A DNA stretch of 64,000 nucleotides from Pedobacter sp. JY14-1 (GTDB taxonomy: Bacteria; Bacteroidota; Bacteroidia; Sphingobacteriales; Sphingobacteriaceae): NCBI RefSeq assembly GCF_029269825.1, contig NZ_JARJHU010000003.1, positions 872,353 through 936,352 of the forward strand, given 5' to 3'. The notes under the pieces were generated by a model that worked only from the letters and a program-made list of their open reading frames with translations, had not been told where the DNA came from and did not search any database. Below are positions 6,710-61,220 of this stretch, piece by piece. Both the position numbers and the translations under genes were made by a program. The number at the start of each line of letters is the position of its first letter. Positions within the stretch are counted from its first letter, which is position 1.

Positions 6710-7241
6710 AAGAATCTTCCTGTTCGGGTTTCCTTAACCGTTTTAATAACAAATAAACATACGTTTTGTGCTGATCAATCAGCCGGAGCGACCATATGAG
6801 GTTAAAATCCCCATAATCAGGTTTATTAATTTTTTCCCTCAGGAGCGGATTGTGGATACAAGGCCGCTCTTGTTTTTGGTATATATCTACCATTTCCGGG
6901 GCGGTAGGAGCGGATGTAACCCTAAAAACACCCGCTCCATGCTTCCGGAATCCCCGCGCAGGATTTTCCCTTCGTTGTCTGCATGTACTGCTCACTGATC
7001 CTGCGCGTCTTCCCCTCAACGGTCCCCATCTAAAAAAGTCCTCCCCGGACAATTCCAGTATTGCCAAGATAGTGCCAGCAGAGATTTCCACGTTTATATC
7101 ACCTTCAACGCAGATCAACCCGGGAAAGCCAGGAAATAAATTCATCAATTTGTAGCAAATTGGGTATTATGCATGCATAGTAAAGCAGACGGTCCATGTC
7201 AGCGTTGACATGGACCGCCCTTGGTATATATAAGCGTAAGG
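6710..7241. other. gene-free convergent region with several stable hairpins
   Basis: About 530 bp between two convergent genes. The open frames present are not protein-like. It holds several inverted repeats: GAGCGG/CCGCTC (about 6843-6869, with inner TTGT/ACAA), GGAGCGG/CCGCTCC (about 6907-6938, with inner TGT/ACA), CGCGCAGGAT/ATCCTGCGCG (about 6954-7007) and the terminator at 7190-7217. The first two share the start AGGAGCGGAT. It could encode a structured RNA or be a pair of REP-like elements. I do not recognise tmRNA, RNase P RNA, SRP RNA or a known riboswitch. Confidence 0.5.
7190..7217 (-). terminator. hairpin downstream of the propeller/cytochrome gene
   Basis: A perfect 12-bp stem, CGGTCCATGTCA with TGACATGGACCG, and a 4-nt loop, 24 bp past the stop codon at 7242. 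The U-run is poor, so termination is likely but not certain. Confidence 0.6.
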
Positions 7242-9884
7242 TTATTTTTTCTGTTCAGAAAGGAATGTGATCAATGATGCGAACTCTTCGTAAGACAGCG
7301 AATTGGCAAGTCCTTCAGGCATCATGGACGTTTCCAGCTCCTTCCGTGTGGCAATGTCTGAGGTTTTGATGTTGCTCACCTGTCCTGCAATGTCGCGAAG
7401 GGTAACCTTGCCCGCTGTTTCGGCAGTTACAAAGCCCATATAAGTCTTGTCATCTTTTGTCGTAATCATTACTGTGGCAAAGCCTTGTGAAATTGATGCG
7501 TTTGGCTTCAGGATGGATTCCGCAATATGCTCGCGACTCATGATTGATCCAATCTGCCCCATGAAAGGCCCTTTCAGCGGTTCGCCCTTGCTCAGGCTAT
7601 GACAGGCAACACAGCCTTGCTTAGTGAAAATACCTTTGCCCAGGGCCGGATTGCCTTTAATCTTTGCCATAGCCAGCATGATATCTTCTATAGAAGACTC
7701 GCCGATCTGCCCCTTTTTGTTTCTGATCTTTTCCAGGTCGATCTTATCTTCCACTTTGGCTACCGGTTTTTCCTCAACACTGAATTCAGGTATTTCCATC
7801 TGGTATTTTTCATTAAGATCGATGAAGAAGGTCTTGCCGGCAGTGCCTGATTTTCCTGCCTCAGCCAGCATAAACTGTCTGATGGCGGCAGAGCCTGCCC
7901 ATTCTACGGCATCATAATAGGGGCCATGACCGTCTGGCCGGGTAGACCACCAGGTCTCTGCGGTATAGGGAGCCTCCGTCTTATACGTTCTTGCTAGTGT
8001 ATTGATGATCGCAGTCTTCAGATTCTGGTCATTGCTCTTCTGATAGGCTGTGATCAGGCTGCTAACTGCTTTCTGGTCATGCACATAACGCAGTACCCAT
8101 AGTGCCAGTGTAGCGTTTTCAGTACCTACTGCATTCAAACACGCATCGGTCGCATTCAGCTCCAAAAGTGCCTGTACGGCAAGGTGAGCAGGAATGATCG
8201 CCGAGTTCGGCGTTGCATGAGGACCTTCAGTATCTTTGGCCGGGGCTGCAAACGAGCTGGGTACCTTTACCCCCAGCAGTGCAGGAATTGCTTCGGCCTT
8301 ACCCAGACGGCCCAGGCCGATAATGGCAGCAGCCTGTATCCTAGGTGAGTTGTCTTTAAGCCCCTCCAGGAATGGCTGTACGGGCACACTCGGTGCATTG
8401 GCCTTCCGGTCTGCAAGTGCACGCAGGGCAAATTCCCTTACCTCAGGTTCTGCTGTCAGTTTTACCAGATTTACGGTGCCTTGTGCCCCCGCGGCCTGTG
8501 CATATGTAAAGATACCGGCTACACGGTTATACAGAGGGAGAGATCTGTCGGCGGCAATAATCCACGATGCCTTTGCAGCATCAGCCGGTTTGCGGCTCAG
8601 CAATTCCTGCTGGGCATTCAGCCTGGCTACGGAGCTATTCGATTTCAGCAGTTCGCTGAGTTTTTTTACCGGTGCCTTTTTCAGATCTGGAAATGCAGTG
8701 TATTGCCAGCCCTTTGGAACGGCTCTGACAATAAAGCCTTTATCCGGACTGCCGGAATAACCCGCACCATCCCAGGCAGAAAGGTACAGTCGGCCAGAGC
8801 CGTCAACATCCAGGTCAGTGATCTGGTTCAGCTTGATAAAGTTTTCGTCCTTTTGCGTAAAGCTCGCGCCGTCAGGTGTTACACGGTGAAGGTAAAGAAA
8901 GCTGTTTCCCCAATCTGCCATCATCGGTACATGATTATATTGCTCTGGCCAGGTCGGCTCATCCATGAAAAGACAGCCTGTACCTGAGCCTCCGCCTACA
9001 TCGACCAGGCCAGGCAGAATCTCTTCTGTAAAATGCTTGAACAATAACGGGTAGCCATACTCTCCTGACTGGATATGGTGACTAAAGCGGATATTCCAGC
9101 CACCTCCGTCGTTCGTATTGTCACGGGTAAAGATGTTCATGTAGGGGTCGATGGCCACGTCATAAATATTACGTGTACCATGTGTATAGGTTTCCATTTC
9201 AGTTCCGTCCGGCCTTACCCGTACGATACCGCCACCATGCATGGTTAGTTTTTTGCCGTTACGGTCCACAGCATTATAAAAGCCGAAGTCCCCGACAGCA
9301 ATATAGATCCAGCCATCTATGCCCATCCGGATTCCGTTGGTGGCATGGTCGGTGCCCCGGCTCTGCAGGAATTTCGGGGCGCTGATGTGTTCGATCAAGG
9401 GCTTGGAAGGGCCATCGGCTACGCCGTCATTGTTTTTGTCTTCAAACACGACCAGGTCCATGCCGGTAGCAATTCCCTTCTCGAAAACGGTATGGAGTAC
9501 AAAAACTTTGTCGCCCATAGCAATAATTCCTCTGGGATTGTCTACCGCGGCAAACTCGGTGTGGCTTTCCGGCTTTCCGTCGTTGTCTTTGTCAATCAGC
9601 TTGATGATGCTGCCTTTCCCCGGGTCTTTGCCCAGTGAACCGATCTGGTCTACACCTACAAATACTTCGCCGGTAGCTGCCACAGCAAGACATGCGGGAC
9701 TTGGTGTAAGGTCGGAACCGGCAAAATTGTTCAGTATCAGCGCTCCCGGCCAGCTGGAAGCATTGCGTGGTGTATCGGCCTGAATGCTCAGCGCCTGGTG
9801 TGTTTCGGTGTTAAAACCCATGCGTGCTGCAAAACCCAGCAGCAGCAGGAAGGAGTAGATGAGTAAAAGGTTGATCTTAAACAT
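7242..9884 (-). CDS. secreted beta-propeller / HEAT-repeat / heme c protein (PVC-type heme-binding family)
   Basis: About 880 residues from MFKINLLLIY, which begins a hydrophobic export signal; the frame upstream to 9944 lacks such a feature. Three modules follow. A sorbosone/glucose dehydrogenase-like propeller holds GSLGKDPGKGSIIKLIDKDN and GTDHATNGIRMGIDGWIYIA. A middle helical part resembles HEAT repeats (IQAAAIIGLGRLGKAEAIPA). A C-terminal cytochrome c-like domain has a single CVACH heme site in FTKQGCVACHSLSKGEPLKG and the usual trailer around TKDDKTYMGFVTAET. Such proteins are common in Planctomycetes and Bacteroidota and are presumed periplasmic sugar or polyol dehydrogenases passing electrons to heme c. 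Substrate and electron acceptor are unknown. It is transcribed alone from 9942-9949. Confidence 0.85.
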   Translation of the reverse strand: MFKINLLLIYSFLLLLGFAARMGFNTETHQALSIQADTPRNASSWPGALILNNFAGSDLTPSPACLAVAATGEVFVGVDQIGSLGKDPGKGSIIKLIDKDNDGKPESHTEFAAVDNPRGIIAMGDKVFVLHTVFEKGIATGMDLVVFEDKNNDGVADGPSKPLIEHISAPKFLQSRGTDHATNGIRMGIDGWIYIAVGDFGFYNAVDRNGKKLTMHGGGIVRVRPDGTEMETYTHGTRNIYDVAIDPYMNIFTRDNTNDGGGWNIRFSHHIQSGEYGYPLLFKHFTEEILPGLVDVGGGSGTGCLFMDEPTWPEQYNHVPMMADWGNSFLYLHRVTPDGASFTQKDENFIKLNQITDLDVDGSGRLYLSAWDGAGYSGSPDKGFIVRAVPKGWQYTAFPDLKKAPVKKLSELLKSNSSVARLNAQQELLSRKPADAAKASWIIAADRSLPLYNRVAGIFTYAQAAGAQGTVNLVKLTAEPEVREFALRALADRKANAPSVPVQPFLEGLKDNSPRIQAAAIIGLGRLGKAEAIPALLGVKVPSSFAAPAKDTEGPHATPNSAIIPAHLAVQALLELNATDACLNAVGTENATLALWVLRYVHDQKAVSSLITAYQKSNDQNLKTAIINTLARTYKTEAPYTAETWWSTRPDGHGPYYDAVEWAGSAAIRQFMLAEAGKSGTAGKTFFIDLNEKYQMEIPEFSVEEKPVAKVEDKIDLEKIRNKKGQIGESSIEDIMLAMAKIKGNPALGKGIFTKQGCVACHSLSKGEPLKGPFMGQIGSIMSREHIAESILKPNASISQGFATVMITTKDDKTYMGFVTAETAGKVTLRDIAGQVSNIKTSDIATRKELETSMMPEGLANSLSYEEFASLITFLSEQKK

Positions 9885-9941
9885 GGTTTTGGTTATAGTC
9901 CCTGGCGGGAAATAGTGATTAGTGTGTGTTTTTGGTACTAT

Positions 9942-9949
9942 CAAACTTA
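9942..9949 (-). promoter_or_regulatory. -7 promoter element TAAGTTTG
   Basis: An exact TAnnTTTG on the minus strand, about 55 nt before the ATG at 9884 of the propeller/heme c gene. No convincing -33 TTG is seen. Confidence 0.45.
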
Positions 9950-9983
9950 CTATTTTTTGGCGATAATTCTACAGATGTTCATG

Positions 9984-10040
9984 CATGAAACACCGTTGTA
10001 CTTACCAGGAACTTACAATAAGGTATTACCGGTGTTTCAT
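9984..10040. repeat. inverted repeat ATGAAACACCG / CGGTGTTTCAT
   Basis: Two perfect 11-bp arms (9984-9994 and 10030-10040) with a 35-bp spacer, between the divergent propeller and DUF92 genes. A related ATGAAACCCGG occurs at about 10088. The spacer is long for a terminator; a protein-binding site or the base of a structured RNA are both possible. Confidence 0.5.
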
Positions 10041-10178
10041 ACAGGCGCTTTGCAGCATTCTGGCGGAAATAGCCGAACCAAACCCGTATGAAACCCGGTC
10101 CAATGCCGTAGCGAAGGGGCTAAGCATTGCAAGGTATTAAGCCGGAAAAGCTTAGCTTTACCTGGAAAAGTCAGGTTT

Positions 10179-10883
10179 ATGGATATGATTTTATTGACGC
10201 TCTGCCTGGTATTCCTGATGGTGGTCTGTGTTAGGAAACAAAAACTGACTACCGGAGGTGCCTTTGCCGCGGGATTAGTAGGGGCACTGGTGTATCTTGC
10301 CTCAGGCTGGAATGGACTGCTGATGTTGCTTGGCTTCTTCCTGGTCAGTGTCTGGGCAACTGCACACGGCCGGGCAAAGAAAGTGGCAGCGGGTGAGGTG
10401 CATTCGGGCAGGCGTAATGCAGGTCAGGTCCTGGCAAACGGGGGAGTAGCTGCGCTGATGGCAATCGCCATGATCACAGATCGGGTGCATGATGAGATGT
10501 ACCTGTTAATGATGGCGGCGAGCCTTGCCTCGGCACTATCTGATACCTTATCTTCAGAATTGGGTATGGTCTACGGACGAAGGTTTTATCATATACTGAA
10601 CCTCAGGCCTGGTGTCAGGGGAACAGATGGCGTCATTAGCCTTGAAGGTACGCTTGCCGGGCTGGCCGGGTCTGCCCTCGTAGCATTGATCTTCGCAGGC
10701 TGGAGTCTCCAGGCCTTATTAACAGCACTGGCGGGTATGGCGGGCAATTTTGCCGACTCATTGCTGGGTGATCTGCTGGAACGCAAAGGCCATATTGGTA
10801 ATGATCTGGTGAATTTTCTAAATACGCTTGTTGCAGCGTTGGTCGTACTGGGGCTTTTTCTTGCCACACAAGCGTTTGCGTAA
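10179..10883 (+). CDS. DUF92 family integral membrane protein
   Basis: A 234-residue polytopic protein with about six hydrophobic helices. It carries the family features: the N-terminal [20 protein letters not shown], the loop [20 protein letters not shown] and the C-terminal [20 protein letters not shown] with its conserved acidic residues. The DUF92/TMEM19 family includes plant VTE6 phytyl-phosphate kinase, so a role with prenyl or phytyl phosphates is possible, but bacterial members are uncharacterised. It stands alone, with TAGCTTTA (10153-10160) as a near-match promoter element and an AT-rich hairpin at its stop codon. Confidence 0.85.
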
Positions 10884-10902
10884 AAGATTTATACAATCTT
10901 TT
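10882..10902 (+). terminator. AT-rich terminator of the DUF92 gene
   Basis: AAAAGATT pairs with AATCTTTT over a 5-nt loop and overlaps the stop codon (10881-10883). The stem is perfect but A/T-rich, so its strength is uncertain. Confidence 0.45.
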
Positions 10903-11035
10903 GGCATTTACAGTCCGACTTGCTTTATATTTACGAAATGCAAGCGGTTTTTATCTGCTGACCGGCATCTTTCCGGGAAGGGCAATAATGACCTGATAAC
11001 TAAACAAAATACAACTGACCAAACTAGAACCACAC

Positions 11036-50935: not shown

Positions 50936-52522
50936 TCACGGGACCTCCTTCAGATCCGCTTTGTTGATCCAACCTTTGGTGACTTCACCATCATTGTTCG
51001 TATGGGTTACATAGATGAAATTGTTCTGTTCGTCCACAACTGAAAAACCGTTGCTCGTCCAGAGCCCCAATACACCCTTTCGCGGTTTCGACGGGTCGGG
51101 GGCCTCATAAAAGTAAAGAATCCCTTTCGGCACCAGGTATCTTTTTCCTTCACTCGTCAGTACTACTTCACGGCTTTTTTCCTTCGTCGCGGTATTGGTT
51201 GTTGCCGGAGGCGGCGGAATAACCGGTTTTGCTGTGCTGACGGCCGCAGTTTGACGCTCATATTCTTTTTGAAGACTATCCACTTCTGTATTTTCTTTCA
51301 ATACCGCCGTATCCGTAATGATCGGTTTGATTGCATTTGCCGTATCAGGCTCCGGTTCAGGCATTGTTTCTGCTGTTGTGTCCTGGCCGGCAGCCGACAA
51401 GCTATCTGTGTAAGCAGTCAGCTGTCGTTTGTCCATGTCAGACCTGTAAATGGAGTAACCTGCAAAAAGGCTTAAAACGACCAGGGCCAGGATCATTACA
51501 AAAAAGATTGGTCTCGACACTTTCACTATGCCGCCTTCCGGCTCTGCAGGTAGCGTGGCACCTGTCTCCCTGTCTGCAGTTACGATCTGCTCCAGCACCG
51601 CTACCTTTTTTTCGGCCTCCATATTATTTCTTTGAATGGCTTCCTGCAGGGCCATTCCATTTGCATAACGCTTCTCCGGTTGTTTCTCCAGGCACCGGCT
51701 GATCAGCGCCAGCAGCCAGCCAGGTACTTTCATCTCCTGTTGTTTCTGTGTGTCTGTCCAGGATTCGGGTAAATGTACTCTTCTCAACTGCATCAGGTCT
51801 GGCAGCGGTTTTTCCATGTGTGCCAGCATTACCGTGTTCCTGGAAGTCTCGCCCTTCCCCGTCTGCGGAAAAGGTACAGTACCGGCGAGCAGCTCATATA
51901 AGATCACCCCGTAACTATAGATGTCTGTCTGGAAAAACATTTCACCGTCGTGCTGTTCGGGAGCCATAAATTCCACTGCCCCGGCATGGCGAATGCTGCT
52001 CCTGCGTTGTTCATCAGACATCACGGCCAGACCGAAGTCAAACAGGATATAGTTGCCGGTAGCCGTATTGAATTTCACATTATTGCTTTTGATGTCCCCG
52101 TGCTTCACGCCCACGCTGTGACAATGCGCCAGGGCATTTGCCAGCTGTTCCGCAAGCTTTATGGTCTCCCGTATGGTAAATACAGGATCATGAGGTGCTT
52201 TCAGTAACTCTTCCAGGTCGGGCCCCTCAATATATTCCATCTCGATAAAAGGAAAGGACCCGCTTTCGGTAAGTCCCGAATTAAGGATTTTTACCACATT
52301 TGGACAAGGATTTTCATTGACCTTCTTTAGTTTTTCCACTTCATTCCTGAAGTTCCTGAAATTTCTGTCGTCAGCATTTTCAGTATGGATTGGTGTAGGT
52401 AATATCTTTACCGCAGTAAAGATTGCACCCATTCTTTTTCCTTTATATACTGAACCCTGACCGCCCGTACGCAGGGCGCCCATGTTTTCCAGTCCTTCTG
52501 CTATGGTAAATACTTTACTCAT
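50936..52522 (-). CDS. membrane Ser/Thr protein kinase with SH3-like ectodomain
   Basis: A 528-residue eukaryotic-like kinase. The kinase domain covers about residues 15-300: glycine loop RTGGQGSVYKGKR, Lys39 in AVKIL, catalytic loop HGDIKSNN with Asp143, DFG at 162-164 and MAPEQ. The usual HRD Arg is Gly, so this is a non-RD kinase. A membrane helix lies at about 337-357, then a Pro-rich linker (KPVIPPPPATTNTATK) and a C-terminal SH3-like domain from about 455 (RYLVPKGILYFYEAPDPSKP, VTKGWINKADLKEVP). It is the last gene of the operon, 18 bp after its paralogue. The ectodomain may sense wall material, in place of the PASTA repeats of PknB. Confidence 0.93.
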   Translation of the reverse strand: MSKVFTIAEGLENMGALRTGGQGSVYKGKRMGAIFTAVKILPTPIHTENADDRNFRNFRNEVEKLKKVNENPCPNVVKILNSGLTESGSFPFIEMEYIEGPDLEELLKAPHDPVFTIRETIKLAEQLANALAHCHSVGVKHGDIKSNNVKFNTATGNYILFDFGLAVMSDEQRRSSIRHAGAVEFMAPEQHDGEMFFQTDIYSYGVILYELLAGTVPFPQTGKGETSRNTVMLAHMEKPLPDLMQLRRVHLPESWTDTQKQQEMKVPGWLLALISRCLEKQPEKRYANGMALQEAIQRNNMEAEKKVAVLEQIVTADRETGATLPAEPEGGIVKVSRPIFFVMILALVVLSLFAGYSIYRSDMDKRQLTAYTDSLSAAGQDTTAETMPEPEPDTANAIKPIITDTAVLKENTEVDSLQKEYERQTAAVSTAKPVIPPPPATTNTATKEKSREVVLTSEGKRYLVPKGILYFYEAPDPSKPRKGVLGLWTSNGFSVVDEQNNFIYVTHTNNDGEVTKGWINKADLKEVP

Positions 52523-52540
52523 ATCTGTCGCTAGTTAATA

Positions 52541-53830
52541 TCAAAAATAAGGTACATCGTTCACTATTCCATCTTTTGTTTTCTGCAGATTGACAGTCCC
52601 CGGCTTTTTCTTCACACTATCTCTTTTTACCGCGCTCCCGGCCCTTTTAACCGTATCCGCAGCAGGCTTTTCAGTGCCTGGTATACCAGTGGAGGTGGCT
52701 TGCACACCTGTGCTGTCTTTTCCGGTTCCGGAATTGCCTTGCCTGTAGTCACCCAGGAGGGCATTTACGCCAAAGATACTCAGGGCCAGTAATATCAGGA
52801 CCATTATTCCGAATACCCACTTCAGCTTCTCAAGTGAACGGTATTTTTTCAGTTCTCCCAGTAAAAGTTCGTTCTCAGTCTTATAACCGCTCAATACCTC
52901 CAGATAACGTTCTGTATTGTTGCTGGCTTCAATGCCGCTGCATACGGCCTCATGCAGTTCCATCCCATCTGCAAACCTCCGTTCCGGCTGTTTTTCCAGG
53001 CACCGGTCAATTACCGCCAGCAACCATTCGGGAATTTGCTGTTCATGCGCTTTTTTGTCTTCCGGCCAGTCTTCCGGTATGCGGACACTCCGCAGTCCCC
53101 CCAGATCGGGGACTTGCTTTTCCAGGTGTGCCAGCATGACCATATTTCTTGACGATTCATTTCTGTTCATCAACGGAAAAGGCACCGTGCCTGTCAGCAC
53201 CTCATACAACACCACACCATAACTATATACATCGCTTTCCAGGAGCATCTTCCCGTCGTATTGTTCCGGAGCCATAAATTCCACCGCACCAGCATTGCGC
53301 AGGCTGCTGCGGCGCTGTTCGTCCGACATGACCGCCAATCCGAAATCCAGCAGCATATAATTGCCTGTTTCCGTATTGAACTTTACATTATTGCTCTTAA
53401 TGTCCCCGTGTTTTACACCTACCCGGTGGCAGTGGGCAAGCGCCGCAGCCAGCTGTTCCGCCAGCTTCATCACTTCTCTGATCGTAAATACGGGATTATG
53501 CGGAGGCCGCAGCAAATCTTCCAGGTCGGGGCCTTCAATATATTCCATCTCAATGAATGGCAATGACCCGCTTTCAGTTAACCCTGAATTGAGTATCTTT
53601 ACCACGTGAGGGGAGGGGTTTTCATTCACCTTTTTCAGCTTGTCCACCTCATTCTGGAAATCTCGGAAATTCCTGTCGTCTTTATTTTCCGTATAGATCG
53701 GTGTCGGCAGCAGCTTCACCGCCGTCATTACGGGTGCCATGCGTTTGCCCTTATACACAGAGCCCTGTCCGCCTGTGCGTATCGCCCCCATATTCTCCAG
53801 GCCCTCGGTTATGGTAAATACCTTTGCCAT
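52541..53830 (-). CDS. membrane Ser/Thr protein kinase (paralogue without SH3 domain)
   Basis: A 429-residue kinase very similar to the next one in its first 300 residues: RTGGQGSVYKGKR, Lys39, HGDIKSNN with Asp143, DFG at 162-164. It also lacks the HRD Arg. After the kinase domain comes a short coiled region, a membrane helix (about VFGIMVLILLALSIFGV), and a short extracytoplasmic tail of about 60 residues (GTEKPAADTVKRAGSAVKRD) with no domain. The duplication is therefore recent in the kinase domain and divergent outside the membrane. It starts on the last base of the FHA gene's stop codon (TAATG). Confidence 0.93.
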   Translation of the reverse strand: MAKVFTITEGLENMGAIRTGGQGSVYKGKRMAPVMTAVKLLPTPIYTENKDDRNFRDFQNEVDKLKKVNENPSPHVVKILNSGLTESGSLPFIEMEYIEGPDLEDLLRPPHNPVFTIREVMKLAEQLAAALAHCHRVGVKHGDIKSNNVKFNTETGNYMLLDFGLAVMSDEQRRSSLRNAGAVEFMAPEQYDGKMLLESDVYSYGVVLYEVLTGTVPFPLMNRNESSRNMVMLAHLEKQVPDLGGLRSVRIPEDWPEDKKAHEQQIPEWLLAVIDRCLEKQPERRFADGMELHEAVCSGIEASNNTERYLEVLSGYKTENELLLGELKKYRSLEKLKWVFGIMVLILLALSIFGVNALLGDYRQGNSGTGKDSTGVQATSTGIPGTEKPAADTVKRAGSAVKRDSVKKKPGTVNLQKTKDGIVNDVPYF

Positions 53831-54615
53831 TAACTCATCTGATAACTAAACTCCAATATTGCAGACTCACCAAGAACAATCTGGTCGCCTTCCTGCAGCA
53901 CATGCCCAAACTCGGTGAAGGTCAGCTTTACGGTATTGTGTCCGTCAGCCGGTTTCACCTTTACCTTGTTCCTTGGGGGGATACCCCCTTCATCTGCAAA
54001 GAGCATAAATACGTAGTCGTTTTTATTCCATTCTATATGGGCATGCTGCCTGCTGATGTATTTGTTCCCGGCATTGCTGCTTGAGTCTGGAAAAGCGATC
54101 GTATTTTCGCGTACGAATCCCTCGTTGTCCCTGGTCTCCCGACCCCGTCCGATATTGATCCGTCCTTCGCCTGCATGGATCCTGTACACCTCCTGTTCCG
54201 CCTCTCCGTTTATCACCCTGATGTAAGCCGCATCCGAGCGTTGGACCACCACATGCTCAGGAACCTTTACCACAAGCGCAACATCCATACGTTCCGTCTT
54301 CGCACTGCCTTCCGGGAGTTCTTCTGTAAAGTGGATTTCCAGTAACCATTTGGATGGCAGGTCAATTGCAAAATCATCTGCGATCCGCTGTACCTCATTC
54401 TTGAAACGCTCCTCATCCTCAAAGAATACCGCAGAGTCATACAGGAACCTTTCCTCAGGGGGGCAGGCGATATAAAGTTCCAGCCCACGGATATGCCGGC
54501 CCTCGCCGCCTTCCATTTTCTGCAGTTCCTGCCTGATAAACAGGAGCAAGGCTTCCCTTACCGTTTTTACATCCTGCGGCCTTTCCGGCGTATTCTTCTT
54601 AAAAAAGCTAAACAT
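53830..54615 (-). CDS. FHA domain protein with FhaA-like N-terminal domain
   Basis: A 261-residue cytoplasmic protein. The N-terminal half (about 1-125) is helical then beta, with REALLLFIRQELQKMEGGEG and LELYIACPPEERFLYDSAVF, resembling the N-terminal domain of actinobacterial FhaA. The C-terminal FHA domain keeps the phosphothreonine-binding residues: INIGRGRETRDNEGF and KYISRQHAHIEWNK. It should bind Thr-phosphorylated partners, presumably the kinases or the SEDS-PBP fusion encoded beside it. It lies 1 bp after the fusion gene and overlaps the first kinase gene by one base. Confidence 0.9.
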   Translation of the reverse strand: MFSFFKKNTPERPQDVKTVREALLLFIRQELQKMEGGEGRHIRGLELYIACPPEERFLYDSAVFFEDEERFKNEVQRIADDFAIDLPSKWLLEIHFTEELPEGSAKTERMDVALVVKVPEHVVVQRSDAAYIRVINGEAEQEVYRIHAGEGRINIGRGRETRDNEGFVRENTIAFPDSSSNAGNKYISRQHAHIEWNKNDYVFMLFADEGGIPPRNKVKVKPADGHNTVKLTFTEFGHVLQEGDQIVLGESAILEFSYQMS

Positions 54616-54616
54616 A

Positions 54617-57600
54617 TCAAAACTGTATTTGCGTTTTAGTTTTCAGGCTGTCCGTTTTCTTTGCCTGTTTAAAATCCCGGATATAACCCAGTTTCAGCAA
54701 TGCGGGGATCACGTGCTGCCCTGCAGCCAGTACTGCCTTACTCGATCCCCTGGTCGACTCGATCCGGATGCAGGTCACAATATGTCCGCCGCCCGTCTTT
54801 TTCGGGACGAAGAAAACATACCAGCCATCATTGATCTGCTCCTGTTTCCATATTCTCTCCGGCGTACCGGTTTTCCCGGCCACCGTCAGTTTCAGCGTCC
54901 ATACTTTCCCCGCACTTTGCTTCAGCATATAATCCGTCATCAGCGCTGCGTATCCCGGTTGATCAGCCAGTTTTATGCCATTTTTCACGGAGGTCAGCGA
55001 ATCATTTACTTTCAGGACGAAGCGGTTGGTCATCAGCGTGCCTCCGTTGGCGATCCCGGAAGCCATCCTGGCCACCGCTGCAGGTGTAGCGATCAGTTCT
55101 CCCTGGCCCCAGGACATGCCCGAGATGCCTTTGGCCCGCGTCCGTTTGATGTTTGACGGGTCATAACGTGGCTTCGTATTAAATTCTGTCCGTTCCCAGA
55201 GCGCATGCCATTTCTGCTGTTGCTCCGGTGTAACCTTGCCTGGTTCGTAGTAATAACCGCCGACACCATGCAGGAACATACCAGTCTTCTGATAAAGTTC
55301 CGTCATCTTATCCTGCAGATGTTCTTCATTTGCCAGTTTAATAAAATAGACGTTGTTTGATTTTACCACGGCCTTTTCCAGTGTAATGACACCGGTTTCA
55401 TCCGGTTCAATTCCCTTTGTCCGGATCCTTTCGCCCATACTTACCGTAAACTTACGGTCAGCGGCCGCCATGCCCAGTTTATTGAAGGCTGCCATGGCCG
55501 TAACGAGCTTTGCCGTAGAACCCGGCTGCGTAGCGGTAGTAAAACCCAGGTCCGCTGTCGTATACCAGCCCGCCAGCCTGTTCTGTTCTGCAGTGGTCAT
55601 GGTCAGCAGTTCCCAGTCTTTCACCGGCGGCAGGGGGTACACCGCCGAAGCCAGGACATCGCCCGTATTGTCTTCCATGACGACTACCGAAACCCGGCTT
55701 TTCTTCAGCGAGTCATCTGCGGCCAGTGCATGCTGAATGGTTGCCTGCAGGCGTGCATCAATGGTGAGCTGGACATCTCTGTTACGTTTCTTGAATGCTG
55801 CCACTTCCCCGCTGTTGATTCCCGCCAGCAGGAGTGGAGCGAGGGCCGAATAATCTCTCTTGCTTACCGTCATTTCTTTAATACCCCTAGGCAGGAAACG
55901 GTCTTCCTGATAATGGCTTGCCCTGGTAGTAAAGGATATTGCCGGTGTGTGGAAACCCCGCAGCTCAGCTGCATGTTCGTATTCCGCAAAATAGCCGTTC
56001 GTGCTGCCATTGAACACGCCTGTATTCACATCGCCGGTCCAGAAGAAAGTCTGTTCCTCAAAAGGATAATACCTGTCCACGCGTTTGTGGATGGCCGAAT
56101 CCAGGTTATACCGGATCCCTGCTGCCTGAAGTGTCTTTACCTGTCCGCGAACAAAGGCAGGATTGCTGGTTGCCAGTACGCGCCCTTTGCGGTCGTAAAG
56201 CTGACCGGCCTCCAGCTTATTCATCAGTATCGAAATCCTGGGGTTATAGCTGAACATGCGCAAGCCACTACGGTCAGCTACCAGGGCCGGCCGTACCACC
56301 CATTTCCGGTTTTCCGTAGCGTATCTCGATACCGTAAAGCAAAGCAGCCCTACGGCCACGGTAGCGGAAAGCAGTGCAGGCACCAGGTTCTTGTCCTGCT
56401 GTGCAGTAATGAACTCCATCTGTACCGGTGTGCCGCGGATCCGGGATACCGAAAGCAGGATGCCCGCAGCCAGCATGTTGGCAATGAGCGACGACCCTCC
56501 GTAACTGATAAAGGGCAGAGCTACACCCGACAGGGGAAGGGCACCGGTAGATCCGCCGGCGATCAGTACAAACTGTGTAAACAGACTGATTCCTATGCCC
56601 GCGCATAAATAAAATAAAAAAGGTGTACCTGTTTTCCTCCCGATCACAATGGACCGGTTCAGAAAGATGAGAAAGAGAATAAATACAGAAGCGATACCTG
56701 TCCAACCAAATTCCTCACCGATAGCAGGCAGGATCATATCGGTATGTGCTTCCGGTATATTTTTAGCAAATCCCTCACCCACACCCTGACCGTTCAGGCC
56801 GCCCCCGGCCATTGCCCAGATGCCGTTAGCTACCTGGTCTCCACCGTAGACCTCGTTGTTCCAGGGATCCTGCCAGATCGACTTTCGTTCGGTCAGACGG
56901 TTCACCGGACCGGGGATCAGTTTGTCGAGGTAAGGCACCTGGTCAATCAGGAGAAAACCTGCCATGACCATCGTGACCATGATTGCCGACTCACTCGTGC
57001 GCTTCTGGACAAATACCATGATCAGGGTCAGCAATACAGCTGTCAGCAGGCTCGCGATCCAGATGTTCAGGAACCATACCGTCAGCACGTAGGCCAGGAC
57101 AGCGACGACCATCATCATGAAATCGCCCCTAGAGAAGGAAAACAGGATAATAAAGGTAAAGCAGACCACCATTGCCGGGCCAAGGTCGCCCAGTGCCAGG
57201 TAAAGCAATATGGCGAACAACATGGCCACCAAAGCGAAGGAAAAGAAATACCAACGCTTCTGCCAGCTCAGGTATTCGGAAATGAAACGCTCGTTTGCGG
57301 AAAAGAAACCCGCCAGAAAAAGGATGATCGCATATTTTACAATTTCGCTGGGTTGCACCCCGAAAAGATTGACCTTCACGCCACTGCCTTCCGGACCATG
57401 TCCGAACATGACGGTCAGCGAGAGCAGGGCCAGTGCAGCAAGTGCCCATTGCCAGCCATTGGCTTTACCGCTGTTGCGACCAAGGACCAACATGCGGTAA
57501 AACCTCGAATCCACCGTCAGCTTACGGAAATTGACCAGGAGCATGAGCACGATACCCAGCAGCCCCATGCCGAAGAAGATCAGGGTATCTTTTGCCAGGA

Positions 57601-58612
57601 AGCGGTCGCGGAGCGGGTCCTGGAGGCTGAGCAAGGTAATGACCGAAAGTCCTGTCATCAGCATCACCACCGGGAGGATAAGCCGGTCCGATTCCCGGAA
57701 CCGGTAGCGTAAAAATAAGTTCAGCAGCAGGAAACCACCCAGGAAACCACCTGTAACGATCCAGTACCACTTCCTGAAGTCTTCCGGCGTACGTACGATC
57801 AGCGATTTTTCCTTTTTCAGGATCTTAAAGTCGCGGGCAGAGAACAGGCGGATGGTATGCGGACTCTGGTGAAAGGTAAATACAGCATCTTCATCCAGCG
57901 CCTGCACTCCCTGCGAACGGCCGAACTGAAAGCCCGGTTGCAAAGGCAACACATTATAAGCCTTACCTTCCTGCAGGTTCCGGAAACCAAAACGCCCCGA
58001 GGCATCTGTACGGGCATAAGCAGTCACGCCGATATTTCTGGTGCCTTCCTCATCGCTCACAAAGCTGCTGTCCTGAGGCAACACCATCTGCAGTTTCACC
58101 AGCACGCCAGCCACGGGGTGGTCGAGCGAATCCAGTATGTATCCACCCAGGCTGTATGGGCCGCTGTGCAGATCGGTAAATGCCGGCAGGCGGGGAGGGT
58201 GTTTTCTTTCCTGTTCGAAACGCAGGGAGTCTGCGCCGGTATAACCCAGCAGCGCCCTCGAATCCATCACCCTTTTCTTAAAATTCTTTCCGCCTTTGAT
58301 GAAGGCCTCGTCCGCGTTGACAAAGAAACGGCGTTTGTTCAACTCACCCACATTGTCCAGTGGTTCAGGAAGTGATGCCGCTGCACGCGTAACGATCTCA
58401 CCGATCAGGGCGATATCCCTTTTGTCCTCAAAGTAATAACCTTTCTCCAGTAACTGTACGATTCTTTTGCCCGGTTCTTTGTCGTTCAGGTTCATTATTG
58501 TACCATTTGACAGGCGCTCCTGTACATTCGCAAAACCCGGTTGCAGATTTCCGTACAGCGTGATGAAGAAACCTCCGAGAATGATGAAAATGACCAGGAA
58601 TAAAAAGCGCAT
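54617..58612 (-). CDS. fused SEDS glycosyltransferase and class B penicillin-binding protein
   Basis: A 1331-residue inner membrane protein. After a membrane anchor (residues 1-20), the extracytoplasmic segment contains a carboxypeptidase-regulatory-like fold (about 150-235, GGYILDSLDHPVAGVLVKLQ). From about 290 to 775 follows a polytopic SEDS domain with the FtsW/RodA motifs LGDLGPAMVV, EAHTDMILPAIGEEFG and SGVALPFISYGGSSL. The C-terminal part is a class B transpeptidase with all three active-site motifs: S1032-T-A-K, S1085-N-N and K1247-T-G. It can in principle both polymerise and cross-link peptidoglycan in one chain. The gene lies 1 bp after the phosphatase gene and 1 bp before the FHA gene. 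Confidence 0.95.
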   Translation of the reverse strand: MRFLFLVIFIILGGFFITLYGNLQPGFANVQERLSNGTIMNLNDKEPGKRIVQLLEKGYYFEDKRDIALIGEIVTRAAASLPEPLDNVGELNKRRFFVNADEAFIKGGKNFKKRVMDSRALLGYTGADSLRFEQERKHPPRLPAFTDLHSGPYSLGGYILDSLDHPVAGVLVKLQMVLPQDSSFVSDEEGTRNIGVTAYARTDASGRFGFRNLQEGKAYNVLPLQPGFQFGRSQGVQALDEDAVFTFHQSPHTIRLFSARDFKILKKEKSLIVRTPEDFRKWYWIVTGGFLGGFLLLNLFLRYRFRESDRLILPVVMLMTGLSVITLLSLQDPLRDRFLAKDTLIFFGMGLLGIVLMLLVNFRKLTVDSRFYRMLVLGRNSGKANGWQWALAALALLSLTVMFGHGPEGSGVKVNLFGVQPSEIVKYAIILFLAGFFSANERFISEYLSWQKRWYFFSFALVAMLFAILLYLALGDLGPAMVVCFTFIILFSFSRGDFMMMVVAVLAYVLTVWFLNIWIASLLTAVLLTLIMVFVQKRTSESAIMVTMVMAGFLLIDQVPYLDKLIPGPVNRLTERKSIWQDPWNNEVYGGDQVANGIWAMAGGGLNGQGVGEGFAKNIPEAHTDMILPAIGEEFGWTGIASVFILFLIFLNRSIVIGRKTGTPFLFYLCAGIGISLFTQFVLIAGGSTGALPLSGVALPFISYGGSSLIANMLAAGILLSVSRIRGTPVQMEFITAQQDKNLVPALLSATVAVGLLCFTVSRYATENRKWVVRPALVADRSGLRMFSYNPRISILMNKLEAGQLYDRKGRVLATSNPAFVRGQVKTLQAAGIRYNLDSAIHKRVDRYYPFEEQTFFWTGDVNTGVFNGSTNGYFAEYEHAAELRGFHTPAISFTTRASHYQEDRFLPRGIKEMTVSKRDYSALAPLLLAGINSGEVAAFKKRNRDVQLTIDARLQATIQHALAADDSLKKSRVSVVVMEDNTGDVLASAVYPLPPVKDWELLTMTTAEQNRLAGWYTTADLGFTTATQPGSTAKLVTAMAAFNKLGMAAADRKFTVSMGERIRTKGIEPDETGVITLEKAVVKSNNVYFIKLANEEHLQDKMTELYQKTGMFLHGVGGYYYEPGKVTPEQQQKWHALWERTEFNTKPRYDPSNIKRTRAKGISGMSWGQGELIATPAAVARMASGIANGGTLMTNRFVLKVNDSLTSVKNGIKLADQPGYAALMTDYMLKQSAGKVWTLKLTVAGKTGTPERIWKQEQINDGWYVFFVPKKTGGGHIVTCIRIESTRGSSKAVLAAGQHVIPALLKLGYIRDFKQAKKTDSLKTKTQIQF

Positions 58613-58613
58613 A

Positions 58614-60056
58614 TCAAGGGGTTACAGTGACAGGTAATGAATCAGTTTTAAAGGTACTCTTCGGCAGCTTGCCGCTCACATACCGGCCCTGCGGAAAATG
58701 GTAGACAATCTCCATCGCGTTCGGGCAATTGACAAAACGCACATTTTTCAATATGACCGCATTGTTCTGCGAGGCAATGGCTGTAGGGAAATCCTCAAAG
58801 GTCAGGTTCTCCAGCTGCAGATGCTGGTTGGAAGGCAACACCTCTATCGGCACTTCGTTAAAGCTGGTATCCCGCTTTAGGGTGATGCCTTTTTCCGCGA
58901 TTAGGTATACCGTATCGCCCCTGAAGCGCAGCGGTTCAGTGATCAGTATGGGCGACTGAAACAAGGAATCTGTCAGCACCAGGATCTTTCCTGTCATGCG
59001 GTTCAGGGTATCCTGCAGTTTCTTCTCCTGTGGATTGCGGGGCGGCTTGATCTGGCTCAGCCGCTGGCTGCTGAGTGCCTTGCGTTCATTGCTGCGGTTC
59101 CGCCAGAGCAGGTATGCATTTGCCCCGAGCAAGGCCAGGCAAATGACAACCAGCAGGGTTATTGTTCCCTTTTTGCCTTTGTCATGATTCGCGGGATGAT
59201 TGTTTCCTGTAATTGCGGGCTGCACCGCTTCTTTTTCCGGGACCTGGCTTGCCGCAGGCTTTCGTGTCAATCTTGTCTTTGGTTTTTCCGGTTTATGCAG
59301 CGCCGATTTCCTGTCATTTTCTATCAGTACTACCGTAATGTTGTCCAGCCCGCCATTGGCGTTGGCCATCTCTGTCAGTTTCAATGCCTTTTCCTGCAGC
59401 GAAGCATTGATGGTCATCACCGAAGTGATCTGTTCCCTGTTCACCATATCCGACAGGCCATCACTGCAGATCAGCAGTACATCTCCCGGCAAAAAGGGCG
59501 ACTGTCCCGTTTCAATATAATCGCTTTGCCCTTTGATGTTGGCTCCGAAACCCAGCGCCTTATTGATCTCGTTCCGCTTAGGGTGCTTCATCGCCTGCTC
59601 TTCCGACAAGCGCCCGCTGTCTTCCATAAAGCCCACAAAGCTCTGGTCCTTGGTGATCTTTACCAGCGACTGGTCACGCAACAGGTACAGCCGTGTATCA
59701 CCTACATGGGCATAATGGAACAGGTTACGTTCAGGGTCCGCGACCACCAGTGTCAGCACACAGGCCATCTTTTCATGTTCCTTTACCAGCTGTTTCTCAT
59801 TCATGATCTGCTGGTCAGCTGCGATGATCGCCTCACGCATCAGTGCAGGCAGATCGGCATTGGGCAGGTTCAGGTGCTGCAAAATTGATTTACGGGCAAT
59901 TGCAGAAGCGATCTCCCCTCCCGAATAGCCACCTACACCGTCGATCACACAGCCCATGATCAGTGCTGTGCCTGCAATCTTCTCGGCAATAAAGGCATCT
60001 TCGTTATTGTCCCTTACCTTGCCGGTATCTGTGGTGCCAAAGAAATGCTTATCCAT
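58614..60056 (-). CDS. membrane PP2C-type protein phosphatase with extracytoplasmic domain
   Basis: About 480 residues, starting MDKHFFGTTDTGKVRDNNED at 60056; the frame extends to 60110 but only through non-conserved sequence. The metal-site motifs are VRDNNEDAF, VIDGVGGYSGGEIAS, ICSDGLSDMV and GGLDNITVVLI. After the phosphatase (about 1-240) come a basic linker, one membrane helix (TITLLVVICLALLGANAYLL) and an ectodomain of about 150 residues with beta-helix-like repeats (LQLENLTFEDFPTAIASQNN, AVILKNVRFVNC). It is the counterpart of mycobacterial PstP and should reverse the kinases encoded downstream. Its start overlaps the small ORF at 60049-60147 by 8 nt. Confidence 0.93.
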   Translation of the reverse strand: MDKHFFGTTDTGKVRDNNEDAFIAEKIAGTALIMGCVIDGVGGYSGGEIASAIARKSILQHLNLPNADLPALMREAIIAADQQIMNEKQLVKEHEKMACVLTLVVADPERNLFHYAHVGDTRLYLLRDQSLVKITKDQSFVGFMEDSGRLSEEQAMKHPKRNEINKALGFGANIKGQSDYIETGQSPFLPGDVLLICSDGLSDMVNREQITSVMTINASLQEKALKLTEMANANGGLDNITVVLIENDRKSALHKPEKPKTRLTRKPAASQVPEKEAVQPAITGNNHPANHDKGKKGTITLLVVICLALLGANAYLLWRNRSNERKALSSQRLSQIKPPRNPQEKKLQDTLNRMTGKILVLTDSLFQSPILITEPLRFRGDTVYLIAEKGITLKRDTSFNEVPIEVLPSNQHLQLENLTFEDFPTAIASQNNAVILKNVRFVNCPNAMEIVYHFPQGRYVSGKLPKSTFKTDSLPVTVTP

Positions 60057-60147
60057 TCTTACGCGATGAATTTTTAATGTCTGCAAAGTGTGCCAGCAGG
60101 AGCAGCACACATAAGATAAATAACGCTGCGGAGAGTAACTGTGACAT
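60049..60147 (-). CDS. predicted 32-residue single-pass membrane peptide
   Basis: An open frame of 33 codons starting at the ATG at 60147, three bases after the stop codon of the FHA-like gene, and ending in the TAA at 60049-60051. Its last 8 nt overlap the PP2C start. It encodes MSQLLSAALFILCVLLLLA, one hydrophobic helix, followed by a polar, mostly basic tail (HFADIKNSSRKNG). The fit at both ends of an otherwise 94-bp gap in a tightly packed operon suggests a real gene. Its function is unknown; small membrane peptides in signalling operons often regulate a partner membrane protein, here possibly the phosphatase or the SEDS-PBP fusion. Too short to judge by codon usage. Confidence 0.6.
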   Translation of the reverse strand: MSQLLSAALFILCVLLLLAHFADIKNSSRKNG

Positions 60148-60150
60148 ACT

Positions 60151-61155
60151 TCAGGATTTAAATATGTTCATTCCGATGATGCCGTTCAGGATGATCCTCG
60201 AGTTCAGGGGCAGTTCCGCCCATTTCGGGCCATTAATATCGCTGCGCTCCATCAGCACTTCGTTTAAAATTGTTTTCTCTCCAAATGAGGCCAGGTAGAA
60301 TTTGTCTTCCTGCCGGTCATAACGTACCTTCAGGTGTGGTGTGTTCACCCATTCCGAAGGAATCCTGAAGATGTCAGGCGCATTGCGCTCCTCTTCATCT
60401 CCGGATATGGTGATCTGTTCGTATTTCATGACAAACTCCAGTTTCTTACCGGCATATGCCTTGTCGGGTATGGTGGTCTCAAACCTGGCCAGTACAGCAG
60501 ATTGCTGTGCAGCGGTTGTTTTTTTTGCTCCCGCGGTTGTTTCTGTTTGCACCGGGGCAGCTTCCGGTGGCGCCGGTGGTGGTACGAGCTGATCATCCTG
60601 AAAAGGGATCTCATAATAGCCGTCACTGTAATAGATAAAGTCTTTCAGGATATCATTGTTGATGTCAAAGGTCTGGGCCATCCCCGTCTGACGCGGAATG
60701 AATGTTACCCTGAGGTTTTCTTCCTTCTGGTGACTGTCGGGCAGGAGCTTACCGATAAAACCGATATCACCGGGCCTGTAGTCAGGGTGCGACACGAAGC
60801 GGAATACCCATTTGTTGCTGGCCGGCTCCACCTGTTTGCCGTTTTTGATCTCCCTGTTCAGGATAGTGTAAAAATTCTTCACTGTTTCGTGTGCGATCAG
60901 GCCCAGTATGCCTTTTTTGTGGTCCATAAATTCCCTGTAATCGTCACCATTCAGGCAAATGATGAACTCGTGGTAAAATACGACCCTTTGGGCAAAGGAG
61001 AGTTCTTCCAGTGACTTTTTAAATCCGTCAACAATGTATCTGTAGACCGTGTCCGGTTTCAGTTGTTTTGGTTTGCCCGATGATGATGTGCCTTCGTTGG
61101 TAAGGAACCAGTCCTGTATGCCAATACGCTGCCAGAAAGAGGGTTTTGTCGTCAT
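60151..61155 (-). CDS. FHA-like protein with degenerate phosphopeptide site
   Basis: A 334-residue protein, first gene of the operon. The N-terminal half resembles that of the second FHA protein (helix then strand, with RVVFYHEFIICLNGDDYREF in the place of LELYIACPPEERFLYD). A Pro/Ala/Thr-rich linker follows (PPPAPPEAAPVQTETTAGAK), then a C-terminal part with FHA-like strands (TPHLKVRYDRQEDKFYLASF, ELPLNSRIILNGIIGMNIF). The GR and SxxH residues that bind phosphothreonine are missing: the strand reads ITISGDEEE and VNTPHLKV. It may be a scaffold or regulator rather than a phosphopeptide reader. The assignment is by overall pattern and position, so it is less certain than the others. Confidence 0.7.
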   Translation of the reverse strand: MTTKPSFWQRIGIQDWFLTNEGTSSSGKPKQLKPDTVYRYIVDGFKKSLEELSFAQRVVFYHEFIICLNGDDYREFMDHKKGILGLIAHETVKNFYTILNREIKNGKQVEPASNKWVFRFVSHPDYRPGDIGFIGKLLPDSHQKEENLRVTFIPRQTGMAQTFDINNDILKDFIYYSDGYYEIPFQDDQLVPPPAPPEAAPVQTETTAGAKKTTAAQQSAVLARFETTIPDKAYAGKKLEFVMKYEQITISGDEEERNAPDIFRIPSEWVNTPHLKVRYDRQEDKFYLASFGEKTILNEVLMERSDINGPKWAELPLNSRIILNGIIGMNIFKS

Positions 61156-61189
61156 TGATCCGCTCAGGTAATAATCTGAAAAGTAATTT

Positions 61190-61220
61190 CTAAAGTATTC
61201 CTAAAGATAGAAAAACCAAA
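61190..61220 (-). promoter_or_regulatory. probable promoter of the kinase/SEDS-PBP operon
   Basis: Minus strand TTTG (61220-61217), 19-bp spacer, TACTTTAG (61197-61190), a one-base variant of TAnnTTTG. The start site would be about 30 nt before the ATG at 61155. A second, TATCTTTA (61209-61202), is also a near match. Confidence 0.5.

Follow-up and report, generated by a model that had tools for sequence, protein, structure and literature searches.

A Bacteroidota operon with a fused SEDS-PBP synthase as the probable counterpart of the actinobacterial wall-synthase module

The window analyzed here, a stretch of 64,000 nucleotides of the genome of Pedobacter sp. JY14-1 (assembly GCF_029269825.1, contig NZ_JARJHU010000003.1, positions 872,353 to 936,352 of the forward strand), carries on its minus strand, from position 61155 down to 50936, an operon of seven genes that encode, in this order, an FhaA-like protein denoted X, a membrane microprotein, a PP2C phosphatase, a fusion of a SEDS polymerase with a class B penicillin-binding protein (PBP), a forkhead-associated (FHA) domain protein and two Ser/Thr kinases. 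This operon is likely to be the Bacteroidota version of the actinobacterial wall-synthase module, with the SEDS polymerase and the transpeptidase fused, and to represent an accessory third machine under kinase/phosphatase control. The evidence for an actinobacterial-type module comes from the conservation of the operon, the SEDS trees, the link of X to FhaA, the joint presence and absence of the signalling genes and the synthase, and a triple fusion of PP2C, SEDS and PBP. On the basis of sequence comparison, the SEDS half and the gene order give good support to common descent with the actinobacterial operon, and FhaA gives fair support; we infer that the kinases and the phosphatase control the synthase, and the direction of the kinase effect belongs to this inferred part.

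Gene order and the origin of the fused synthase

In the two actinobacterial operons used as yardsticks, those of Nocardia farcinica (L145) and Nonomuraea gerenzanensis (L149), the gene order is FhaA, FhaB, PstP, RodA, PbpA, kinase, kinase. The Pedobacter operon shares with this actinobacterial fhaA-fhaB-pstP-rodA-pbpA-pknA-pknB arrangement, in the same order, an FhaA-type gene, a gene for a protein with a transmembrane (TM) segment, a PstP-type PP2C, a RodA-type SEDS, a class B PBP and two kinases. It differs in that SEDS and PBP are fused and an N-domain is added, an FHA-less microprotein occupies the place of FhaB, an extra FHA gene follows the synthase, PASTA domains are not found on the kinases, and the operon is accessory within its genus. 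The linkage of pstP, rodA, pbpA and a PASTA kinase throughout Actinobacteria (PMC6554272; all papers are cited here for the sections that were available), the actinobacterial operon together with FhaA (PMC11898655) and the clustering of kinase genes with rodA and PP2C genes in Gram-positive bacteria (PMC1262709) have been described previously.

The original prediction for this DNA, a tightly packed minus-strand operon of seven genes, is confirmed by the gene calls, the domain matches and the spacings (from X to the last kinase, 3 bp, an 8-bp overlap, 1 bp, 1 bp, a 1-bp overlap and 18 bp); a scan for promoters and terminators stayed near the level of shuffled sequences (9 vs 13.3; 18 vs 13.4). 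The gene content was rightly called actinobacterial, but the accompanying statement that the order differs did not hold, the window being collinear with both L145 and L149. The two synthases are, as had been claimed, one protein, in which Pfam reports FTSW_RODA_SPOVE (PF01098, E 2e-47) and Transpeptidase (E 6e-22) within a single open reading frame (ORF). The fusion had also been considered unusual; natural single-ORF SEDS-PBP fusions do, however, have precedent, the Rhodococcus RHA1 genome being cited for them (PMC10449877).

The fusion (54617-58612, 1331 amino acids (aa); minus strand, as for all features below) comprises a TM segment, a periplasmic N-domain that consists of a helical part and a beta-sandwich (57764-58549, the periplasmic placement being predicted by topology), the SEDS polymerase domain (56387-57712, about residues 301-742) and the class B PBP half, including its TM helix (54620-56386). 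The SEDS domain resembles the RodA of the actinobacterial operons: in trees of 34 and 37 rows, the fusions and these RodAs lie on one side of a branch supported at 100/99, and the RodA and FtsW of Bacteroidota, including those of the host itself, the SEDS proteins of Escherichia coli and Listeria and the plasmid-encoded fusions of Rhodococcus lie on the other side in the 34-row tree. The SEDS of Bacillus and the FtsW of a Streptomyces plasmid, added in the 37-row tree, also fall opposite the fusions.

The Rhodococcus plasmid fusions (L146-L148) have in common with the window a SEDS followed by a class B PBP in one ORF, but they are 941-946 aa long, have no long N-domain, and occupy a separate place in both the SEDS and the PBP trees. 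The annotation of the flanking 8 kb on each side, which is incomplete, lists neither a kinase nor a PP2C or FHA gene. These fusions look to be of separate origin. In the SEDS trees, they are set on a long branch to themselves, and multicopper-oxidase genes are found near L146 and L148. RodA and PBP2 of E. coli likewise combine a polymerase with a transpeptidase but are encoded by separate genes in nature and in no such operon; engineered RodA-PBP2 fusions are active (PMC10449877, PMC6207328). A search of the literature by title and the start of the abstract, in which subscription papers were mostly out of reach, found no description of the operon or the fusion in Bacteroidota, and the available sections of PMC7159879, PMC12088040 and PMC6213207 contain no mention of such a system.

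The SEDS His-Thr-Asp residues, among which Asp625 is presumably the catalytic Asp of the polymerase, are kept in 96 of 96 fusions, as are the Ser and Lys of the SxxK motif and the Ser and Asn of the SxN motif of the PBP half; the KTG motif retains its Lys and Gly in all 96, with Ser replacing Thr in 12. Residue 728 (codon 56429-56431) falls in the linker that connects the membrane part of SEDS to that of the PBP, a linker that we take to be cytosolic given the known topology of these proteins. With Thr in 76 of the 96 fusions and Ser in 13, it would be the best candidate phosphosite of the fusion. The N-domain (residues 1-300) is modelled by AlphaFold with a mean pLDDT of 90. Its assignment to a known wall-binding fold was rejected after Foldseek returned beta-sandwich proteins with TM-scores of at most 0.28 of the query, none of them informative; the Pfam family CarboxypepD_reg reaches 21.6 bits on this domain, under the cut-off of 32.3.

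The genome of the window contains two other SEDS genes, with class B-type PBP genes within about 5 kb, and accordingly the fusion is a third, accessory SEDS-PBP machine in addition to the two that the host already has. The closest named relatives of the fusion, among the best 80 of 286 matches, come from Pedobacter (up to 78%, P. deserti).

Phyletic distribution and joint presence of the genes

In the search of 395 genomes of the phylum, fusion-type frames of at least 1200 aa, counted among the matches listed, occur in at least 15 genomes and at least 16 loci. The fusion was found in 41 of 201 genomes and 7 of 25 genera of the family, in 10 of 395 genomes and 5 of 196 genera of the class (E 1e-120), and in 6 of 195 genomes of another class, that of G030 (E 1e-60); it is thus patchy and accessory in its distribution. 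The named loci are the best 80 of 286 matches in named genomes, a choice because of which the nearest relatives dominate the set. The check suggested with the original prediction, a search for the fusion in Bacteroidota with a count of adjacent genes, gives for these loci PP2C and the fusion at 80 of 80, X at 78, the FHA gene at 77 and a kinase at 75, and the conservation, far from being limited to close relatives, extends across families and partly into another class. A single order, X-PP2C-fusion-FHA, is seen across the 80 loci, those with a gene missing being cut short at a contig end, and the nine same-class loci of the first set all contain X, PP2C, the fusion, FHA and a kinase in the same order, kinases apart. 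Two loci are irregular: in L129, the FHA gene lies 4.2 kb past the fusion, and in L117, from a Segetibacter metagenome-assembled genome, a stop codon interrupts the fusion frame, by decay or sequencing error. The locus counts are not independent because L055 and L056 share one contig, and L038 and L080 apparently come from the same genome. In the former pair (contig NZ_LGEL01000011.1 of Pedobacter panaciterrae O48), the same layout occurs twice in opposite orientation, either a duplication or an assembly artefact.

The position of the kinase genes varies: they are found upstream of X, after FHA, or at both places, and in L042, L043 and L144 a kinase gene lies between PP2C and the fusion. Three Segetibacter loci (L124, L125, L126) contain three consecutive kinase genes. 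L144, on plasmid unnamed7 of Spirosoma oryzicola (66396-88286), has the set in the same order, kinases apart; this plasmid, of 137 kb and typed as non-mobilizable, might bear on the patchy spread of the module. In the other class, L049 contains FhaA, PP2C, the fusion and FHA, and L050 contains FhaA, a 1384-aa frame that combines PP2C with the fusion, and FHA; the L050 frame (6762-10916) runs through PP2C, N-domain, SEDS and PBP, with PP2C being a separate gene in L049. L046, on a contig of 14.8 kb, encodes the fusion and a kinase and no recognized FHA gene.

Within the genus, all 10 fusion-bearing genomes, that of the window included, were compared with the first 10 of 20 fusion-less genomes shown. 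An Stp1-type PP2C is present in 10 of 10 fusion-bearing vs 0 of 10 fusion-less genomes and a Pkinase match (E 1e-15) in 10 of 10 vs 1 of 10 (G478), figures whose weight as statistics is reduced by kinship within a single genus. In all 10 fusion-bearing genomes, the best PP2C match is located no more than about 5 kb from the fusion, and the same holds for 19 of their 20 kinase matches. An additional kinase-PP2C pair occurs elsewhere in G504, and G551 shows one further PP2C match, a weak one. In the genome of the window (G000), the only matches to Hanks kinases and Stp1-type PP2C are those of this operon.

The two FHA-type proteins

X (60151-61155, 334 aa, no predicted TM), predicted as an FHA-like upstream protein, can now be described more precisely as an FhaA-like protein in which a putative FhaA_N-like N-domain precedes a degenerate C-terminal FHA domain that is missing the phosphothreonine-binding Arg and Ser. 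Pfam reported no match on X; the FHA fold of the C-terminal part was recognized with AlphaFold and Foldseek, with only the FHA part of a middling model (mean pLDDT 68) being used. A profile made jointly from three X proteins and distant FhaAs spans residues 36-327 of the window's X (E 4e-20). It matches 88 of 88 X proteins, two of which had gone into its construction, none of 200 shuffled decoys, and both actinobacterial FhaAs (E 3e-7 and 1e-6), in the latter case mostly via the FHA part. When whole proteins are compared as profiles, the FHA part of X aligns with that of the distant FhaAs at a probability of 97%, and the N-domains align in hhalign at a probability of 63% (E 7e-5). In the other class, the gene directly upstream of the fusion encodes FhaA_N (PF12401), above the cut-off in G013, G034 and G131 and below it in G030 and G179; among 14 control genomes, this family was matched in Corynebacterium glutamicum only. 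Profile comparisons of this kind tie X to FhaA, most firmly via the relatives in the other class. One of these genomes, G131, has a second FhaA_N-FHA gene that adjoins another PP2C gene (L140:1854-5821, on a 9.3-kb contig).

The FHA protein encoded after the synthase (53830-54615, 261 aa, no predicted TM) combines its own N-domain with a canonical phosphothreonine site. Pfam matches FHA (E 3e-4, 21.6 bits vs a cut-off of 20.7), and the GR and SxxH motifs, which are the phosphothreonine-binding motifs of FHA domains (PMC1262709), are kept in 90 of 90 proteins. Near full-length profile matches, with E values from 3e-43 to 5e-55, were obtained in five loci of the other class. The possibility that this protein is itself the FhaA was dismissed, its N-domain failing to align with FhaA_N (probability 0.2). 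An unexpected partner of FHA, an N-terminal Swt1-like HEPN domain (PF18731), is present on FHA proteins of the other class (L049:11435-12805, L050:10979-12253, L141:7072-8373), and the product of L140:1854-3554, the neighbor of an FHA protein, matches the same family slightly below the cut-off.

Kinases, phosphatase and the microprotein

The kinases (52541-53830, 429 aa, with a short tail; and 50936-52522, 528 aa) match Pkinase with E 7e-37 and 4e-37. A hydropathy scan predicts one TM in each kinase and in PP2C, located after the catalytic domain, and none in X and the FHA protein. Among the 145 kinases collected, the AxK Lys is kept in 141, the catalytic Asp in 144 and the DFG Asp in 145. The best NCBIfam matches of the window proteins are a PknB-type PASTA kinase and an Stp1-type phosphatase, all under their cut-offs; PknB_PASTA_kin reaches 142 and 139 bits vs a cut-off of 450, and it covers the kinase part only. 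In agreement with the prediction that the kinases are devoid of PASTA domains, Pfam reported none on either of the two or on six others of the collection. The end of the 528-aa kinase tail resembles SH3b by eye only, with no SH3 model reported there by Pfam, and its tail domain is present in 33 of the 145 kinases, itself counted. A kinase-SH3b protein is known from Synechocystis (PMC1262709).

The phosphatase (58614-60056, 480 aa) consists of the PstP/Stp1-like catalytic domain, a predicted TM at about residues 293-311 and a C-terminal tail. It matches PP2C_2 in Pfam (E 5e-13) and the Stp1/IreP model (NF033484, Stp1_PP2C_phos; E 1e-57), in the latter case below the equivalog cut-off (195 vs 230 bits), as does the PP2C of the N. 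farcinica operon (229.3 bits). The closest solved relatives are 1txo ('Putative Bacterial Enzyme', E 6e-32) and 2cm1 (named PstP, E 1e-31). Asp38, Gly39, Asp198, Asp237 and other residues are kept in more than 97% of 90 sequences.

The single-pass membrane microprotein (60049-60147, its end overlapping the PP2C start by 8 nt) had been noted in the original prediction and is confirmed as an ORF of 32 aa conserved at this place: a short hydrophobic ORF lies between X and PP2C in 88 of 88 loci having both, that of the window included (85 in the first pass of the scan, and the other three, with longer gaps, in a second pass). The claim of conservation relies on a shared sequence pattern and a selection test. 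Altogether, 81 copies pass a motif filter, resembling MSQILS...THFxDIKNS; over the 81 copies, the nonsynonymous and synonymous proportions are pN 0.25 and pS 0.74 (near saturation), and the ratio pN/pS of 0.33 suggests purifying selection. The copies of L042, L043 and L044 are looser. Of the six loci in the other class, five have a TM micro-ORF at the same place. The microprotein holds the place of FhaB in the gene order, and FhaB starts with a hydrophobic segment; FhaB joins its TM anchor to an FHA domain, and the microprotein has the TM only. Its derivation from a shrunken FhaB was considered and is no more than an idea: the place fits, but the likeness to the FhaB anchor does not exceed that of control TM segments. 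Of 600 controls, 7-18% score as high as the four distant copies, 53-84% as high as the six near ones and 4% as high as the copy of L042.

Alternative explanations

Several observations weigh against the reading of the operon as a version of the actinobacterial module. The SEDS trees include two actinobacterial RodA rows and few other phyla and are midpoint-rooted. In the PBP tree, the fusions form one clade (100/100) that is not joined with PbpA in the best tree; constraining the two together costs 0.81 log-likelihood units (approximately unbiased test, p 0.065). In 3 of the 15 genomes, each of them belonging to the other class, FhaA_N exceeds the cut-off; it is not matched at X in the window's genome, G261, G033, G249, G371 and G269; the window's genome has a single weak match (18.9 bits) away from X, and PF12401 at E 10 matched none of 10 X proteins. 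Matches via the FHA part are nonspecific, a distant-FhaA profile also matching the other FHA protein of Spirosoma (1e-7). In the phosphothreonine site of X, Arg is replaced by Gly in 85 of 88 proteins and Ser by Asn in 81, with His and Asn kept in all 88, and because of these replacements X is probably no phosphothreonine reader in this lineage. The activation loops of the kinases, inspected by eye, contain Ser but no Thr; the activation loop of PknB holds Thr. Given these loops and the absence of PASTA, the input and targets of the kinases need not match those of PknB. Finally, in three distant loci of the other class (L045, L047, L048), FhaA, the fusion and FHA are found, and the 19 kb examined contain neither PP2C nor a kinase.

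Some of these points could be accommodated by convergent assembly, whereby Bacteroidota gathered kinase, PP2C, FHA and synthase genes independently, so that the resemblance to the actinobacterial operon reflects function and not descent. The PBP halves that do not join PbpA in the best tree, the N-domain of the downstream FHA protein that does not align with FhaA_N, the absence of FhaB together with a microprotein no closer to its anchor than control TM segments, and the nonspecific FHA-part matches all fit such a scenario; the collinear gene order, FhaA_N in another class along with its alignment with X, and the strongly supported SEDS branch speak against it, and we regard convergence as unlikely. 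Slightly less probable still is that something else, such as stress, secretion or gene expression, is the main target of the kinases, PP2C and FHA proteins, with the synthase as one passenger of the cassette. The variable place and number of the kinases and the three distant loci with the fusion and FHA but no kinase or PP2C in the stretch examined would agree with this, but the phosphatase and kinases are present or absent together with the fusion in the genus, and in L050 PP2C and the synthase share a single frame. An antiphage system, or a trio of kinase, phosphatase and FHA protein of the type VI secretion system kind, is very improbable: both kinases match the PADLOC PD-T4-6 models, with E down to 1e-48, but the PADLOC matches are confined to the kinase domain and the other four proteins submitted gave none, and the defence-system reading was rejected. 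A Bacteroidota version of the actinobacterial wall-synthase module remains the likely explanation, in which our confidence was lowered slightly because FhaA_N is unmatched at X and the FHA-part matches are nonspecific.

Proposed mechanism and implications

Under the proposed scheme, the membrane kinases would phosphorylate threonines on the cytosolic parts of the complex, with Thr728 of the fusion and the kinases themselves as candidates; the canonical FHA protein would dock on the phosphothreonines so produced, X, with its phosphothreonine pocket lost in this lineage, would act as a phospho-independent scaffold, and the membrane PP2C would reset the phosphorylation state. The microprotein would sit in the membrane with the phosphatase or the synthase. 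Both the microprotein and the triple fusion of PP2C, SEDS and PBP suggest that phosphatase and synthase are directly and physically linked. A bolder proposal, to which we give somewhat less than an even chance, is that the microprotein is a core, hitherto undescribed subunit of a SEDS-PBP synthase-phosphatase complex that, in the place of FhaB, couples phosphatase to synthase in the membrane, and that the whole Hanks-kinase signalling of the cell serves this one accessory wall machine.

What is known of Hanks kinases controlling peptidoglycan growth comes mainly from Gram-positive and mycobacterial cells, in which the kinases have many targets. The operon described here would place the same kind of module in a Gram-negative envelope; many species of the genus lack it, and the halves of its synthase are locked together. 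This patchily distributed operon variant has a fused synthase, a conserved microprotein and an FhaA-like protein whose FHA domain is degenerate. One deletable operon would then contain an entire signalling system along with the enzyme that is its output.

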